Shown here one piece after another: positions 1,225 to 12,408 of a DNA stretch of 47,276 bases (its first letter is position 1; the number at the start of each line of letters is the position of its first letter). The notes under the pieces were generated by a model. It saw only the letters and a program-made list of their open reading frames with translations, had not been told where the DNA came from and did no database searches. A program made the position numbers and the translations under genes. Source of the DNA: a virus; IMG/VR virus record IMGVR_UViG_3300035182_000409, positions 1-47,276 of that record. One strand, 5' to 3'.

Positions 1225-1584
1225 ATGAAAATCACCATCATCATCGAAAACCCCAGCGCCAATTTCTTTTCCGCACTCGCAGGCATGGGTAAACCTGCAG
1301 CATTGGTCACTAAACCGGACATGCCGGAACAGCCCACGCCAGAACAGTTCGCGCCGGAACAGCCCACACCGGAACAACTCGTGTCATCTGCACGCGATGT
1401 AGAAGTAGGTGATCGCGTCCATTGGCGTGGTGCTAAGTTTGAGTTTGACGGCGTAGTTGAAAGCATTAACAGCGCTGCCGTGGGCGCTGAAAAAGCAATT
1501 TTTGTACGTCGTAGCGACACGAACAAACTTGTGTCGTTGACTACGGATGACCTCGTAGACTACGATCTCACCCTTTTGCCGTAG
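1225..1584 (+). CDS. Small protein with PEQPTPEQ repeats and an SH3-like C-terminus
   Basis: A 119-residue protein of unknown function. Residues about 32-52 are a low-complexity linker built from repeats of PEQPTPEQ type. The C-terminal half begins VEVGDRVHWRGAKFEFDGVVE, the look of a small SH3/KOW-like beta barrel, as in other proteins of this region. AAGGAG precedes the ATG. The gene has a non-coding leader upstream and a strong terminator directly downstream, so it appears to be expressed separately from the following operon. Confidence 0.7.
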   Translation: MKITIIIENPSANFFSALAGMGKPAALVTKPDMPEQPTPEQFAPEQPTPEQLVSSARDVEVGDRVHWRGAKFEFDGVVESINSAAVGAEKAIFVRRSDTNKLVSLTTDDLVDYDLTLLP

Positions 1585-1598
1585 TCTACCTGGGCCTT

Positions 1599-1631
1599 GG
1601 CGGGGTGTTATGAGCACCCCGCCTTTTATTT
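1599..1631 (+). terminator. Strong rho-independent terminator
   Basis: Perfect nine-pair stem GGCGGGGTG / CACCCCGCC with a 7-base loop, followed by TTTTATTT. It lies 15 bases after the stop of the repeat protein gene and ends right at the ribosome site of the next gene. Confidence 0.9.
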
Positions 1632-1641
1632 AGGAGTCAGT

Positions 1642-1905
1642 ATGTCTAAGCTGACAGTAGATGATATCGTCCCTGACGAACTGTACGTATTTACAGACCC
1701 GGATTTCCCTTCCTGGATAGGGCTAGTTACCCGAGCTGTTCGTCGTAGCGGACTTTCAAATAAAGTCTACGAATTCGAAATCATTGAACTAGCCGATGGA
1801 GCTCGTAGTTTAGGGTATGAAGTAGGCGCGCAACTTCCCCTAAAAGTAACCTACTTCGAACGATACCCACTCATTCCTAGTGCGTCAGATCAATTATTTA
1901 GTTAG
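1642..1905 (+). CDS. Small early protein, tandem copy 1, ends in SDQLFS
   Basis: An 87-residue protein starting MSKLTVDDIVP. Not recognised. It is a paralogue of the next gene (roughly two thirds identical): conserved blocks are LTVDDIVP, LYVF-x-DP, ELADG and YFERYP. Start at ATG 1642 has TAGGAG eight bases upstream; an upstream TTG in the same frame lies inside the terminator and is rejected. The C-terminus, SASDQLFS, is shared with the next gene and resembles the ends of five more genes up to 6376. Confidence 0.75.
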   Translation: MSKLTVDDIVPDELYVFTDPDFPSWIGLVTRAVRRSGLSNKVYEFEIIELADGARSLGYEVGAQLPLKVTYFERYPLIPSASDQLFS

Positions 1906-1913
1906 GAGCCGAT

Positions 1914-2186
1914 ATGTCTAAACTAACAGTAGATGATATCGTTCCTGGCGACCTGTACGTATTTGCAGACCCGACTTTCTCTTTCTGGGTAGGGCTAGTT
2001 GCCCGAGCTACTCGTCGTTGCGGACATTCGAATACACACTACATATTCGAATTCATTGAACTCATCGAGCTAGCCGATGGAACCTATAGCTTAGGGTGTG
2101 AGATAGGGGCACAACTCCCTATAAACGTAAAATACTTCGAACGATACCCGCGCATTCCTAGCGCGTCCGATCAATTATTTAGTTAG
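1914..2186 (+). CDS. Small early protein, tandem copy 2, ends in SDQLFS
   Basis: A 90-residue paralogue of the preceding protein with a three-residue insertion in the ELIELADG region. It begins eight bases after its neighbour's stop, with TAGGAG in the gap. The last eight residues (SASDQLFS) and the DNA around the stop are almost the same as in copy 1, while the middle has diverged. Function unknown. Confidence 0.75.
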   Translation: MSKLTVDDIVPGDLYVFADPTFSFWVGLVARATRRCGHSNTHYIFEFIELIELADGTYSLGCEIGAQLPINVKYFERYPRIPSASDQLFS

Positions 2187-2195
2187 GAGCTTAAA

Positions 2196-3773
2196 ATGAG
2201 CAAAAATAAAGTAACAACCCTTGAACAATACACCGAATGGCTGGATTCATTCTGGACATTCCCCACCACCTGCGGTTTCCGGCCCGCGTATGAGAAGGTA
2301 GTCAAATACTACGAACTCGCAGGCAACGCCGGGCCCAATGAAGAAAACTTCTGGATTTGGCGCGAGCTCATTCGTAGTTCGGACAACGCCAAACTGAAGG
2401 CAGTTATACATACGTACACGCCGGTAGTGTTTGCCGCCGAACCGTGGGTAAACCCGCTTCACTTCGTCCACGTGAGCGACGAGGACAACAGTATGATCGC
2501 GTACACGCCGAACCCTGAAAAAGGGCGGCAAGACGTACAAATTCGAATGAAAGTGGGCAAGTATTTGACGAAGCACTATGCCGAACACCTCGACAACGAG
2601 GCAATCAAGAAGTGGGTAGACCGGCACCGCGAGAAGTGCGAAGAGGGCCTGATACTCTGGGCCTCTACCGAAGACGAGATCGAAGAGGTTTACCTCAACG
2701 GACCACAAAGCTGCATGGACGGTAGAGCGGATCAAATGCAGTATTGGAAGGTGAATACCGGAGGCGTCCACCCGGTTCGTGCGTATGCGGGACCGGACAC
2801 TGTCGTGGCGTATACCAGGCGGGATGGGCGAATCAATGCTCGAACTGTCTGCCATATCGGAGTAACACCCCCAAGATTCACTCGCGTGTACGGGGACACG
2901 GTGCTTGCTACCCGGCTCAAGGAAATGGGGTTCGTAGATGAATACAGCGGCGGGAGTAACGCACTAGGACTCGATGGCGCCCGGTTGCTGAAATTGCCGG
3001 CGCCGGGAAAACCAGATTTCTACATCCTGCCATATCTCGATACTCCCGTGCAAACGGTGAGGCTCGACGGAGATTACGTCCGCATAGCACGAGGTGCGGA
3101 TGGCGTTGCGAATACCCGTGAAGGCAGGGTGTATATCGAAAACCCTGCTGGACATGAACTCTGTGTTTGCTGTGGAGATATGTTTAGCCCACGCAAACTC
3201 ACTCCGGTGCATGGAGGATGGAAAGTTTGCGCGAACTGTAGGGATACACACTACGTAGCGACACGTATTAGTGACTCAATAGATATGTATGCTCTGCGAG
3301 AAAACACCATAATCATCGACGGGCGTCGATACCTTAATACCGTAGATAAAGAAGCTCTCGGATTAGTACAGCTCCGCTCCGGGGAGTGGACACATAGAAA
3401 CAACGCACTGTCGCACCACAAGGGAGGGTTTATCCGGAACGCAAACGGGGCGTTCTGCTGTGGAGTCAAAGACGGTGTACGGGTATTCGCAACGCCGGAT
3501 GAAATCCGAACCAATACCTGGCGCGTAGGTGGGGACGCATATTCCAAGGCACTGTACCATCCGCACTGCGTGCCGGACAAGATGGAAACGCAAACGCTGA
3601 GGGCGTTTCTGCAAGACGTGGTGAGCTCCAAGAGCCGGGCGGGCATTATACGTGCCGAAGCGTGGGCCACTGTGTACTACCTGCTCAATTTGCCGAACAA
3701 CCAGCTAGCAGAAGCGCTGCGGTCGAAGTTTGACCCGATCTGGGGTATTCGCAACCAGCTGGATACTGAATAA
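2196..3773 (+). CDS. 525-residue early protein with putative zinc ribbon, function unknown
   Basis: A large soluble protein with no membrane segment. Cysteines C323, C326 and C345, C348 (CVCCG...CANC) form a likely zinc ribbon in the middle. Around residue 170 is a GPQSCMDG stretch after an acidic EDEIEEVY run; such an SCM block looks conserved in phage proteins of this type but I cannot assign a fold. TAGGAG precedes the start. It sits between small early proteins and lacks their LFS tail. Could be a host-takeover factor or a nucleic-acid-binding protein; both are inference. Confidence 0.75.
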   Translation: MSKNKVTTLEQYTEWLDSFWTFPTTCGFRPAYEKVVKYYELAGNAGPNEENFWIWRELIRSSDNAKLKAVIHTYTPVVFAAEPWVNPLHFVHVSDEDNSMIAYTPNPEKGRQDVQIRMKVGKYLTKHYAEHLDNEAIKKWVDRHREKCEEGLILWASTEDEIEEVYLNGPQSCMDGRADQMQYWKVNTGGVHPVRAYAGPDTVVAYTRRDGRINARTVCHIGVTPPRFTRVYGDTVLATRLKEMGFVDEYSGGSNALGLDGARLLKLPAPGKPDFYILPYLDTPVQTVRLDGDYVRIARGADGVANTREGRVYIENPAGHELCVCCGDMFSPRKLTPVHGGWKVCANCRDTHYVATRISDSIDMYALRENTIIIDGRRYLNTVDKEALGLVQLRSGEWTHRNNALSHHKGGFIRNANGAFCCGVKDGVRVFATPDEIRTNTWRVGGDAYSKALYHPHCVPDKMETQTLRAFLQDVVSSKSRAGIIRAEAWATVYYLLNLPNNQLAEALRSKFDPIWGIRNQLDTE

Positions 3774-3784
3774 AGGAGATCGAC

Positions 3785-4027
3785 ATGCCTGAATTTAGAG
3801 TAGGTGACAGGGTGCGCGTCTCCCTGGACGAGCGTAGGTGCGTATACGGTGACTATGTGGACGGGGATGAGGGGGTAGTCGTGCCGCTCCTTTTCAATGA
3901 CGCAGCCGTGTATCCAGGATCAGTACGAATAAATTTCGACACTAGAAACCGTATCAACTACATGGTAGATAAAAACGAATTGAAAAATCTCAGCCACCGC
4001 AATCCTGCAGACGAGTTATTTACTTAA
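3785..4027 (+). CDS. Small SH3/KOW-like protein ending in ADELFT
   Basis: An 80-residue protein. FRVGDRVRVSLD followed by DGDEGVVVPL and PGSVRINFD suggests a small KOW/SH3-like beta barrel. Its C-terminus, NPADELFT, is a variant of the SADQLFS tail found on other small early proteins. AAAGGAG precedes the start. Function unknown. Confidence 0.7.
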   Translation: MPEFRVGDRVRVSLDERRCVYGDYVDGDEGVVVPLLFNDAAVYPGSVRINFDTRNRINYMVDKNELKNLSHRNPADELFT

Positions 4028-4037
4028 AGGAACCATC

Positions 4038-5021
4038 ATGGACAGACTTATTAAAATCCTGAGCCATCGGCGTCCGGCGGGATCAACATCGGAGGCGTTC
4101 GTTATCAAGGAAGTAATCACGGACAAATATCCGCACACCTTGATGAATGGTAACGTAGTAATCAAGGTCGGGGAATCCGCTACATTATTCTCATGCCACA
4201 CCGACACAGTACATTCCAAGCCAGGGGTGCAGCGCCTTGTATACGATGAAAACTTCGAGAGCGTGCACTTGGACAACGCACCGTTGATCAAGCCGCCGAT
4301 TGATTCGTACAGTCAGTTGGCGGTGTTTGGAACCTACGACCGCGACTGCCTGGGGGCTGACGATGGGGCGGGGATGTACTTGCTCCTTGAGATGATCGAC
4401 GCCAACGTGCCGGGGACCTACGTGTTCCATCACAGCGAAGAAATAGGTGGGCTTGGTAGTCGTTCGCTTTCGTTCAACACCGAGTTCCTGGGACGGTTCA
4501 AACGTGCTGTGGCGTTCGACAGAAAGGGTACGGGCGACATCATCGACCACCAACGCGGCGGAAGGTGCTGCTCAGATATCTTTGTCAAGGCCCTGTCAGC
4601 GCAGCTCAAGGAGCAGGGGCTGACGTATGCAGCAGCAACGGGTAGCTTCACCGATACGGCGAACTACCGGGATACTATTCCCGAATGTACAAACCTGAGC
4701 TGCGGATACTACAACGAGCATGGGCCGAGCGAATGGCTGGATGTGGCGCACTTACATGCACTACGTGACGCCGTAGTTAAAATTGACTGGGAGAGTTTAC
4801 CCTCAGTACGTGACCCGAAGGAAATTTATATCCCGCCTGTTTATACAGGATATGACTGGGGTACCAGGCGCACGAGAACCAAACCGCTAACCATAGAGCG
4901 TTTGCGCAACATGAGTTTGTCACAGCTCGAAAGCGCCTGCATGTGGGATGGCGACGAAGTGGCCGCTGTAATACATGCGCACTTCCATCCGAAGAAGGGG
5001 TTAAAAAATGCTAACAAATAA
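4038..5021 (+). CDS. M20/M28-like zinc metallopeptidase
   Basis: A 327-residue protein with the ordered metal-site motifs of co-catalytic zinc exopeptidases: H54-x-D56 in SCHTDTVH, D108/D109 in LGADDGAG, E134/E135 in HHSEEIGGLG, D161 in AFDRKG and H228 in YNEHGPSEW. These match the H-x-D, bridging D, EE, D, H pattern of the M20/M28/M42 clan (tripeptidase or aminopeptidase type). It is shorter than cellular peptidase T because the lid/dimerisation domain is missing or reduced. The reaction would be removal of residues from peptides in the cytoplasm; substrate unknown. AAAGGAA precedes the ATG. The last 14 bases overlap the next gene. Confidence 0.8.
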   Translation: MDRLIKILSHRRPAGSTSEAFVIKEVITDKYPHTLMNGNVVIKVGESATLFSCHTDTVHSKPGVQRLVYDENFESVHLDNAPLIKPPIDSYSQLAVFGTYDRDCLGADDGAGMYLLLEMIDANVPGTYVFHHSEEIGGLGSRSLSFNTEFLGRFKRAVAFDRKGTGDIIDHQRGGRCCSDIFVKALSAQLKEQGLTYAAATGSFTDTANYRDTIPECTNLSCGYYNEHGPSEWLDVAHLHALRDAVVKIDWESLPSVRDPKEIYIPPVYTGYDWGTRRTRTKPLTIERLRNMSLSQLESACMWDGDEVAAVIHAHFHPKKGLKNANK

Positions 5022-5262
5022 AGACATTGACGAAGTACATAGCAGGCTCATTCGCATCGAGTCGAAGTTGTCACGGTTCATGGAAGTATCAGGGTTTGGC
5101 GTTAATGGTGAACGCCTCGATCGTCAATACTGCATCGTAGCGGGTGACACACCTGCTGTAATCTACGGCCCGTTCACCAGTAAGAAAGAAGCAAAAGACT
5201 GGGGTCGTGCAGCGCTCGACGACTCGCTCTGGTATGTAGTTCCGCTTACGCTGGAGGTGTGA
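5008..5262 (+). CDS. Small protein with GPF...W-VVPL domain
   Basis: An 84-residue protein of unknown function starting inside the end of the peptidase gene, so probably translationally coupled. N-terminal half looks helical (RLIRIESKLSRFM). The C-terminal half, AGDTPAVIYGPF...AKDWGRAALDDSLWYVVPL, resembles the whole of the small protein at 13745 (SGTPADGF-x-LIGPF...WWVLPI), so the two share a small domain. Confidence 0.65.
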   Translation: MLTNKDIDEVHSRLIRIESKLSRFMEVSGFGVNGERLDRQYCIVAGDTPAVIYGPFTSKKEAKDWGRAALDDSLWYVVPLTLEV

Positions 5263-5263
5263 C

Positions 5264-5539
5264 ATGATTAGATTTAACGAGATTCAGGAAGGAGACACCC
5301 TCCGGTTCACGAAAAGCAATGAAACCGCTTCTGGATTCCACGGGGTCGTATTCACGGTATTGAAAAAATATATGCGCAAATATACGGGCGGCGTAATACG
5401 TCCCTGTATCGACATGGAGCTAGTGACACCATCAAGATTCAGCACTAATGAAGCAGGCACTCAGCTAATCGGCGTAACTTTCAGTGAAGCTCGCTTCGAA
5501 CGTACAACTGTGAATCCTGCATACTTACTTTTTTCATAG
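5264..5539 (+). CDS. Small early protein ending in AYLLFS
   Basis: A 91-residue protein, possibly beta-rich (IQEGDTLRF, GVVFTVLKKY). It starts one base after the preceding stop. Its C-terminal PAYLLFS is a divergent form of the LFS tail of this region; here the DNA differs from the other copies although the peptide end is kept. Function unknown. Confidence 0.65.
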   Translation: MIRFNEIQEGDTLRFTKSNETASGFHGVVFTVLKKYMRKYTGGVIRPCIDMELVTPSRFSTNEAGTQLIGVTFSEARFERTTVNPAYLLFS

Positions 5540-5548
5540 GAGGACGTA

Positions 5549-5884
5549 ATGGACTATTCACAAGCAAGAAACTTGCTTAACACGGCACGTAATCGCGCTA
5601 ACGGTAAACCGATAGAAAACAATACCCGTATTTTTGACAGAGGTGATTACCTGGCGATCCAGTTGCATCGCACTGACATTATTAGATTCTATCCCGACGG
5701 ACGTATCACTATTCATCCCGGTCGCTGGTACTCACCTACCACGAAGGACAGAATTAACAGGTACACCGACGCCCGCATTTACCAACGGAACTTTACGTGG
5801 TACTTAGGCGACGGTCGCATATTCACCGAAGGGGCTGAGGTAGGCAAACGTCAAGAAGCGCCCGTCGATCCGTTATTTGCATAG
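5549..5884 (+). CDS. Small early protein ending in VDPLFA
   Basis: A 111-residue protein with helical start (YSQARNLLNTARNRANGK) and a central block YLAIQLHRTDIIRFYPDGRITIHPGRWY. That middle part looks like a small phage domain predicted to be beta-rich, but I do not know its function. TAGGAGG lies upstream. The end, APVDPLFA, fits the loose LF-small-residue tail of its neighbours. Confidence 0.65.
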   Translation: MDYSQARNLLNTARNRANGKPIENNTRIFDRGDYLAIQLHRTDIIRFYPDGRITIHPGRWYSPTTKDRINRYTDARIYQRNFTWYLGDGRIFTEGAEVGKRQEAPVDPLFA

Positions 5885-5893
5885 GAGATTACC

Positions 5894-6130
5894 ATGCCGA
5901 TAGATCAAAACGACCCGCACCTTTTCATAGGGGCTAGAGTAATCGCTATAAAGCGTTCCTCAAACCCTAACAATCCTGGTTATGATGTAGGAGACAGAGG
6001 CGTTATTGCCGATATACCTATCCATGGATATGCCGATATAAATTGGGAAAATGGACATATGCGCTGGAATACGTGCCTCGAAAATGTAAACTTCCTCTCG
6101 TCCGACCCTGCAGATCAATTATTTAGCTAG
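5894..6130 (+). CDS. SH3/KOW-like small protein, tandem copy 1, ends in ADQLFS
   Basis: A 78-residue protein. GARVIAIKRS...PGYDVGDRGVI...INWENGHMRWN reads as an SH3/KOW-like barrel: two beta hairpins around a VGDRG turn and a W-x-NG-x-MRW motif. The following gene is a close tandem copy. C-terminus is SSDPADQLFS. TAGGAG precedes the ATG. Role unknown; such domains bind RNA, DNA or protein. Confidence 0.75.
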   Translation: MPIDQNDPHLFIGARVIAIKRSSNPNNPGYDVGDRGVIADIPIHGYADINWENGHMRWNTCLENVNFLSSDPADQLFS

Positions 6131-6139
6131 GAGGCTACT

Positions 6140-6376
6140 ATGCCGATAGATCAAAACGACCCGCGCCTTTTCAAAGGGGCTAAAGTAATCGCTACAAAGC
6201 GTTCCCCAAACCCTAACAATCCTGGTTATGAGGTAGGAGACATGGGAGTTGTTGCAGGTAGACCTTCCTATGGCTGTGTCGATGTAAGTTGGGAAAACGG
6301 ACGTATGCGCTGGAATACGCTCCTTGAAAATATAAAATTCCTTTCATCCGACTCTGCAGATCAATTATTCAGCTAG
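6140..6376 (+). CDS. SH3/KOW-like small protein, tandem copy 2, ends in ADQLFS
   Basis: A 78-residue, same-length paralogue of the previous protein, with about three quarters of residues identical and no gaps. Differences cluster in the middle loop (DRGVIADIPIHGYAD against DMGVVAGRPSYGCVD). The tail SSDSADQLFS is kept. TAGGAGG precedes the ATG. Recent tandem duplication is evident at DNA level too. Confidence 0.75.
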   Translation: MPIDQNDPRLFKGAKVIATKRSPNPNNPGYEVGDMGVVAGRPSYGCVDVSWENGRMRWNTLLENIKFLSSDSADQLFS

Positions 6377-6385
6377 GAGACTACC

Positions 6386-6787
6386 ATGAACCAAATTACA
6401 CAAATCGCGCTCATTCAAAACCGCGTTATCTCAATCCTGGAAACACTCGATACCCCGACTAACGTACTCGATCTGTTCGATGTTCCTGAGATGCAGGAGG
6501 TGTGTCCAGACCGCGGGAAACTTAGCCAGGTACTGTCTGACTTATGGCGAGCTGGGCAGTTGACACGGGTTCCTTGTGTCGTACCAGGATCGCAAGTGAA
6601 GTATGCATACGAGATAGCGAAGGGCGGTAAGATGCCGAAGCCGCGGACAGAATCCACTTCTGTACCACATGTAAAAGTACGACCACAGACGGAATCTCAC
6701 CAAGCCAAGTCTAAGCCGCATATAACTGTTACAGAACACTTAGTGACGATTGAACTAGATTCTATCTGCATCACGGTGGAAGTATGA
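6386..6787 (+). CDS. Putative winged-helix small protein
   Basis: A 133-residue protein. Residues about 10-75 (RVISILETL...KLSQVLSDLWRAGQLTRV) fit a winged helix-turn-helix with a wing near SQVKYAYEI, followed by a charged linker and a short beta tail. It may be a DNA-binding regulator; the assignment rests on pattern only. Its stop overlaps the next start by ATGA. A second HTH-like protein lies at 13915. Confidence 0.55.
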   Translation: MNQITQIALIQNRVISILETLDTPTNVLDLFDVPEMQEVCPDRGKLSQVLSDLWRAGQLTRVPCVVPGSQVKYAYEIAKGGKMPKPRTESTSVPHVKVRPQTESHQAKSKPHITVTEHLVTIELDSICITVEV

Positions 6788-7026
6788 ATATCGCCCATTA
6801 CCTGATTGGAGAAATCATGATGATTCAAGAACTTTGCAACGAACGCGGCACGGTAGTAACTCTGGTGGATGCAATCCAGGATACATCAATTGTTGACTTG
6901 GAGCGCCTGCGGGTTGCCATATGTAAGGAAGACATGCGGGAAGTAGGCCGACTGATGATATTATTTTATGAAGATTACACGTATAAAGTGTTCGGCGATG
7001 ACGTAGTTGAAGCGCTGAAGCGATAA
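6784..7026 (+). CDS. Small acidic protein of unknown function
   Basis: An 80-residue protein whose ATG overlaps the previous stop (ATGA), suggesting coupling. A second ATG at 6817 has a better ribosome site (TTGGAGA), so the true start may be there, giving 69 residues beginning MMIQELCN. No family recognised. Confidence 0.6.
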   Translation: MNIAHYLIGEIMMIQELCNERGTVVTLVDAIQDTSIVDLERLRVAICKEDMREVGRLMILFYEDYTYKVFGDDVVEALKR

Positions 7027-11640: not shown

Positions 11641-12408
11641 ATGGCAACTGCCAGAAAAAGCAACACCCAAGTCGCAACCGCGAAAGCAAATCTGCCCGCT
11701 GACATTAACGAACAGATGGCCGCTGAACTCGCCACTTTCCAGACACGTCTGCAGACCCATGGTGGCGACATGATCAAGACCAAGGACAAACTGTTCACGC
11801 TCCCTAATGGTGACAGCGCAGATGAGCTCAGTGTCATCATTGTCGACTTTATCAACAGGAACTCGTATTACGACAAGCCTTGGAATCCGAAAGTCCCTGT
11901 ACCGCCTAACTGCTTTGCTATTAGCGTGGAAGCTACCGGCATGATACCGAGTCCCAACAGTCCTGATAAGCAATGTGAAGACTGTGCTTCGTGCTGGGCC
12001 AACGCCTGGAATAGCGCACCTGCCGGCAGTGGCAAAGCCTGCAAGAATGAACGTATCCTCGCAGTCATGGCGCCTGATGGCGAAAGCGATTCACCGCTGA
12101 TGCTTCTGAACGTCACCCCGACGGCCCTGAAACGCTTCGACAACTACGTGGCAAGCGTAGCCCGCAGCTTTCAGCGCCCGCCGCGTGGTGTCATCACAAC
12201 CATCGCCTTCGATCCGAACCAGACCTATAGTTCGTTGGTCTTTGGGAATCCTATCCCCTGCAACCAAGCACAACTGGCTGCAGCATGGGCGCGGAAAGAA
12301 GAGGCTATGCATCGCCTGCAGCAAGAGCCGGACGTGTCCTCATTCGAGGTCGCAGCGCCGGTTAAGGCCAAGGGTAAAGGCCCTGTATCTGCGCGTAAGG
12401 CTGCGTGA
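11641..12408 (+). CDS. Putative ssDNA-binding-type replication protein with Cys cluster
   Basis: A 255-residue protein. The central part has C-E-D-C-A-S-C-W with a further Cys (ACKNE), likely a metal site, followed by a beta-rich part (LMLLNVTPTALKRFDNYV) and a basic Ala/Lys C-terminal tail. This type of protein is found in phages beside DNA polymerase and helicase genes and is often thought to bind ssDNA; that role is inference. ATG 11641 has TAGGAG upstream; an in-frame ATG at 11623 lacks one. Confidence 0.65.
   Translation: MATARKSNTQVATAKANLPADINEQMAAELATFQTRLQTHGGDMIKTKDKLFTLPNGDSADELSVIIVDFINRNSYYDKPWNPKVPVPPNCFAISVEATGMIPSPNSPDKQCEDCASCWANAWNSAPAGSGKACKNERILAVMAPDGESDSPLMLLNVTPTALKRFDNYVASVARSFQRPPRGVITTIAFDPNQTYSSLVFGNPIPCNQAQLAAAWARKEEAMHRLQQEPDVSSFEVAAPVKAKGKGPVSARKAA

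Follow-up and report, generated by a model that had tools for sequence, protein, structure and literature searches.

A short C-terminal tail that ends in Leu-Phe followed by one residue (L-F-x) is shared by seven small early genes of a virus, and from sequence comparison this tail is interpreted, with moderate confidence, as a motif by which these proteins dock on a single shared partner. The DNA analysed is IMG/VR virus record IMGVR_UViG_3300035182_000409, and the whole stretch of 47,276 nt is referred to here as the window. It features a P22-like portal and a PolB-type replication module, and a near DNA match to it was not found among the deposited phages searched. The L-F-x C-terminus is present in 7 of 45 plausible window genes, all in one cluster and belonging to five sequence families, and the remaining 38 genes have no such end. 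Based on how often the LF dipeptide occurs in the window (37 in 13,894 residues), the binomial chance of 7/45 is ~4e-11 and that of 5 independent families among 43 is ~1e-7. A preliminary description of this DNA had reported seven open reading frames with these C-termini, and all of them are present at the positions listed below.

The early cassette and its tail genes

The cluster is part of a cassette at 1225-7026 on the + strand, which consists of small genes and two larger ones, 2196 and 4038 (genes are named by their first position). The features that are referred to in the text are:

1600..1636, + strand: terminator-like GC-rich inverted repeat with a T-run, containing TTTTATTTAGGAG (read by eye)
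1642..1905, + strand: tail gene of family A1, SH3-like body; tail SASDQLFS at 1879-1902
1914..2186, + strand: tail gene, tandem paralogue of 1642 (71% identical); tail SASDQLFS at 2160-2183
2196..3773, + strand: tail-less neighbour, phrog_6980-related; forms an early pair with 4038
3785..4027, + strand: tail gene of family A2, GDRVRV-type body; tail NPADELFT at 4001-4024
4038..5021, + strand: tail-less neighbour, zinc (M20-type) peptidase, phrog_4191
5008..5262, + strand: tail-less neighbour and candidate partner; 92-99% identity among relatives
5264..5539, + strand: tail gene of family A3; tail NPAYLLFS at 5513-5536
5549..5884, + strand: tail gene of family A4, Kyano_Gp96 / phrog_554 body with a C-terminal extension ending APVDPLFA at 5858-5881
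5894..6130, + strand: tail gene of family A5, SH3-like body; tail DPADQLFS at 6104-6127
6140..6376, + strand: tail gene, tandem paralogue of 5894 (73% identical); tail DSADQLFS at 6350-6373
6386..6787, + strand: tail-less neighbour in the cassette, candidate partner
6784..7026, + strand: tail-less neighbour in the cassette, candidate partner

The ATG at 1642 has a ribosome site of its own and is the natural start of the first tail gene; an upstream TTG at 1597 is also present in this open reading frame. The T-run of the hairpin at 1600-1636 runs into the ribosome site of 1642 and forms a TTTTATTTAGGAG-like stretch, and the hairpin was also seen by eye before the first tail gene of the relatives examined. 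The terminator-like form of this hairpin therefore points to a possible transcription stop directly before the tail-gene cluster. Upstream of the cassette, a phrog_419-type gene is present in tandem copies (93-341 and 359-607), and the second copy features a frameshift (other frame from ~540) that reflects a pseudogene or a sequencing error. The tail-like string SDELFS at ~617-634, which precedes the ribosome site of 668, is not part of any good gene and is probably due to chance.

The cassette or part of it is carried by the relatives 3300035661_000624, 3300035182_000854, 3300035180_000411, 3300035661_000743, 3300035661_000528, and 3300037010_000544, and the cluster is also found in a seventh related contig, which is 12 kb long and near-identical to the window. 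In the 58-kb relative 3300035180_000411, five genes end in LFx, and all of them are inside the same cluster; its other LF-ending open reading frame is a single one of 49 aa on the strand opposite to the annotated genes, with LF terminal. A search of IMG/VR with the exact DQLFS/DELFT-TAGGAG pattern returned relatives of this phage and two further records, which were taken as chance matches, one being without a matching gene end and the other unrelated with a single DELFT end. A spaced DNA pattern, LFx-stop-ATG, missed known cases and was too rigid to use. Homologues of 1914 and 3785 were sought in phage records and gave chance-level matches only, and scans of genome contigs with families A4 and A2 gave no match.

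The pair of 2196 (phrog_6980-like) and 4038 is the early pair in several Autographiviridae of Klebsiella, Escherichia, Vibrio, Pectobacterium, and Rhizobium. No LFx end was found in 96 early genes of seven phages that feature this pair or the peptidase. In three of the Autographiviridae, a small FKVGDKV-type protein is encoded right after the peptidase (L076:6712-7173, L079:6843-7301, and L080:6360-6794). These proteins are SH3-like by motif and have in common a different C-terminal domain with DLRRMAM-x-IK.

Conservation of the tail peptide

The window and the related contigs were pooled to give 31 distinct tails from five families. Leu-Phe is invariant in 31/31 tails, encoded by all six Leu codons and both Phe codons. 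The position two residues before Leu is also restricted (Asp in 21 tails, Tyr in 9, and Glu in 1), the residue directly before Leu is Gln, Pro, Leu, Ala, or Glu, and the last residue after L-F is Ser, Thr, Asn, Ala, Ile, or Val. The tail had been described as L-F plus a small residue; the L-F part of this description stands for all 31 tails and the small residue does not, as relatives also end in Asn, Val, or Ile. The contigs with the tail all come from a single narrow lineage, and shared ancestry therefore contributes to the conservation of the tail.

Codon comparison supports selection on the peptide. The last six codons have a pN of 0.069 and a pS of 0.354, and random stretches of the bodies have a pN of 0.138 and a pS of 0.254. 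A tail pN this low has a chance of 0.028 when six codons are counted and of 0.013 with eight codons (0.01-0.04 depending on tail length), values that are indicative only because the test pools related sequences. This is the synonymous versus non-synonymous comparison that the preliminary description had proposed, and its outcome, with pN halved in the tails and pS not reduced, agrees with the peptide-level selection suggested there, as does the fact that no homologue has lost L-F. Since pN is reduced while pS is not, it is the amino acids and not the DNA that are kept. In one relative a two-residue deletion is found just before the tail and the tail itself is intact.

The bodies evolve rapidly. 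The pN/pS ratio is ~0.5-0.7 in families 1642, 5264, and 5894 and ~0.1-0.2 in neighbours 2196 and 4038, and identity among relatives is 94-96% for 4038 and 92-99% for 5008. For family 5549, conservation is higher in the body than in the tail. Copy number also varies; the 1642-type gene is present twice in the window and in 3300035182_000854 and once in three other relatives, and the 5894-type gene is present twice in the window and once in every relative spanning the site. Fast bodies with a fixed tail would fit effectors with a common handle, and relaxed constraint on the bodies would look similar.

A DNA or RNA element has to be weighed against selection on the peptide. The stretch TTATTT-x-TAGGAG could aid the translation start of the next gene or represent a recombination join, with the peptide as a by-product. 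The Leu codon of L-F is TTA in 18/31 tails versus 14/189 (~7%) in the early genes, the untranslated TTTTATTTAGGAG-like stretch lies upstream of the first tail gene of the window and of the relatives examined, and a 23-base match is common to the 1642/1914 and 5894 tails. However, a conserved nucleotide element is difficult to reconcile with a tail pS that is not reduced, and families 3785, 5264, and 5549 use other codons in the tail. Tail DNA identity between families is mostly at the level predicted by the peptides and local codon usage; it is slightly above this level for 1642 or 1914 versus 5894 and for 1642 versus 3785 (P 0.03-0.05), and for the tandem paralogues as well. Good ribosome sites are also seen on the tail-less neighbours, as had been noted earlier, and the doubt expressed then about an RNA element as the main cause is borne out by the near-expected DNA identity between families. 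A nucleotide element is thus very unlikely to be the explanation of the tail. The lean of the Leu codons toward TTA nevertheless indicates some nucleotide-level effect alongside peptide selection, and a minor effect in which an AU-rich stretch just before the ribosome site helps the next gene to start is plausible.

Bodies of the tail proteins

AlphaFold2 models were built on 6-sequence alignments. The 1642 body was modelled with a mean pLDDT of 84 and its last block, which contains the tail, with ~49; the 5894/6140 model has a mean pLDDT of 62 and ~38 in the tail. The tails are thus probably disordered in both models. Foldseek matches of the 1642 model are mostly SH3-like barrels (KOW, the RfaH C-terminal domain, HspQ, and PsaE) with weak E-values, and those of the 5894/6140 model are SH3 or Mib-Herc2 domains. 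The best E-value for SH3-like folds is only 0.004-0.01 and the 5894/6140 model is of low confidence. Profile comparison revealed weak matches between A1 and A3 (1642/5264) and between A2 and A5 (3785/5894) only, with an hhalign probability of 30% or less, and 3785 has a weak profile match to NHase_beta_C. From the two SH3-like models and these profile links, families 1642, 5264, 3785, and 5894 may share a small-barrel fold.

The 5549 body is different. It matches Kyano_Gp96 (PF23790) with an E-value of 1.6e-6, above the Pfam cut-off, and phrog_554 with an E-value of 6e-9. In the Kyano_Gp96 homologues of Vibrio, Pseudomonas, and cyanobacterial phages, little sequence follows the domain and the tail extension is lacking, while 5549 continues for ~12 extra residues that end in DPLFA. 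The tail of 5549 is thus an addition to a body that does without it in these homologues, and this case is the clearest sign that the tail is an add-on. The earlier count of at least four body types is accordingly weakened, as two families model as SH3-like and two more are weakly similar to these; 5549 is a member of another family.

These results bear on a reading in which the tail genes descend by repeated duplication from one SH3-like ancestor, with bodies that have diverged until unrecognisable and a C-terminus that is kept for structure or self-assembly and not for a common partner. The two families that model as SH3-like barrels, the A1-A3 and A2-A5 matches, and the tandem duplications with copy-number variation within the cluster are all consistent with such paralogy. 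The low probability of the cross-family matches speaks against it, as do the position of the low-confidence tails outside the modelled fold and the origin of 5549 in another widespread family, where the tail is an extension. Paralogy is therefore considered an unlikely source of the shared tail.

A tag for degradation, sorting, or stability, in which a host protease, adaptor, or chaperone reads the C-terminus and gives the proteins a common lifetime or destination, is improbable. The tail is C-terminal, flexible, and located on small early proteins, as such a tag would be, and the weak structural matches of the 1642 body include HspQ, which is a Lon specificity factor. On the other hand, the last residue varies (Ser, Thr, Asn, Ala, Val, or Ile), and to our knowledge the tail has no likeness to ssrA-type or other known degron sequences.

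Candidate partners and known docking tails

In the favoured docking reading, the tail would be a short linear motif, [D/Y/E]-x-L-F-[S/T/N/A]-COOH, that follows a short linker rich in Pro, Ala, and Ser. Its carriers would be several early proteins that are small and evolve rapidly, for the most part SH3-like barrels. Each body would have a job of its own, and the common flexible tail would plug the proteins into one shared partner through Leu-Phe and the acidic or tyrosine side chain. The partner is predicted to be a host protein or a protein of the cassette (2196, 4038, 5008, 6386, or 6784). These are the most likely candidates because they are common to all tail-bearing relatives. Besides the cassette, several minus-strand genes are common to the window and 3300035180_000411, some of them 92-95% identical, but the polymerase is PolB in the window and PolA in the relative; the two genomes are related by a clean PolA/PolB module swap. 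In phages with the PolB of the window (52-74% identity), the cassette, the bodies, and the tail are absent in the stretches compared. The presence of the tail thus follows the cassette rather than the replication module, and this speaks against a partner in the phage replisome.

Two other candidates were set aside. The four-cysteine protein 11641 has a homologue in 3300035180_000411 but also in tail-less relatives, and trimming of the tail by the neighbouring peptidase was dismissed because the peptidase gene is also present in phages without any tail. The gene of the former (11641-12405) encodes a four-cysteine motif (CEDCASCWANAW...GKAC), belongs to phrog_27714, has a homologue in both PolA- and PolB-type replication modules, and is possibly a single-strand-binding or replication protein.

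A more specific and tentative proposal is that the tail is an address tag that evolved in the phage on small early effectors of different ancestry, recruiting all of them to one non-clamp hub of host or phage while the bodies diversify rapidly. If the tail does serve as a docking tag, at least five protein families of this phage lineage would converge on a single hub, and the identity of this partner could assign functions to a group of early genes that are otherwise without a clue to their role. The tail would also provide a simple rule for finding hubs in other phages, namely unrelated small proteins that are alike solely in their last residues.

Several known proteins resemble the tail proteins in part. 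The 5549 body is a member of Kyano_Gp96 / phrog_554, whereas the members examined elsewhere are without the tail extension. The C-terminal tip of SSB is DDDIPF. Like the tail, it is flexible and places an acidic residue ahead of a hydrophobic pair at the C-terminus; Phe is last in SSB, whereas one residue always follows Phe here (31/31).

The resemblance of Q-L-F to sliding-clamp-binding motifs had led to the suggestion that the tail might dock on a clamp. Such a clamp would be the beta clamp of the host or one encoded by the phage, in the manner of T4 gp43, gp55, and gp33. The beta-clamp-binding consensus is QL[S/D]LF (Dalrymple consensus, cited in PMC3716654). The tail has the Leu-Phe pair near the C-terminus in 31/31 cases but lacks the conserved Gln, as the corresponding position, three residues before Leu, is Ala, Ser, Val, or Thr in 31/31 tails. 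T4 gp43 ends in D-F-L-F-G and so has the same D-x-L-F-small-COOH pattern, which favours a clamp. DNA_pol3_beta and T4 gp45-type (PF02916) domains were not found in the window and three relatives, a search that a very divergent clamp could escape, and the tail is kept although the window and 3300035180_000411 differ in replication module (PolB and PolA). With no clamp gene detected, the Gln absent, and the tail unchanged across the swap, the suggestion is not supported, and docking on a clamp is highly unlikely.

The T4 proteins are informative in another respect. A description of the present tail was not found in literature searches, and a shared tail on unrelated phage proteins had been thought to be undescribed; this is wrong in principle, as the tails of gp43, gp55, and gp33 are a precedent. 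Their hydrophobic, acidic C-termini are highly similar to one another and freely interchangeable (PMC2988020), and were read in this analysis as SLDFLFG for gp43, SLDFLYEAND for gp55, and TLDFLL for gp33. As in the window, a short hydrophobic and acidic C-terminal motif is attached through a variable linker to several otherwise unrelated phage proteins. The T4 carriers act in replication and late transcription, whereas the carriers described here are small early SH3-like proteins from one cluster, and gp45 was not detected. Because a clamp was not detected, the tail is likened to, and not identified as, a T4-type tail, and by this analogy it may work as the interchangeable docking tails of T4 do.
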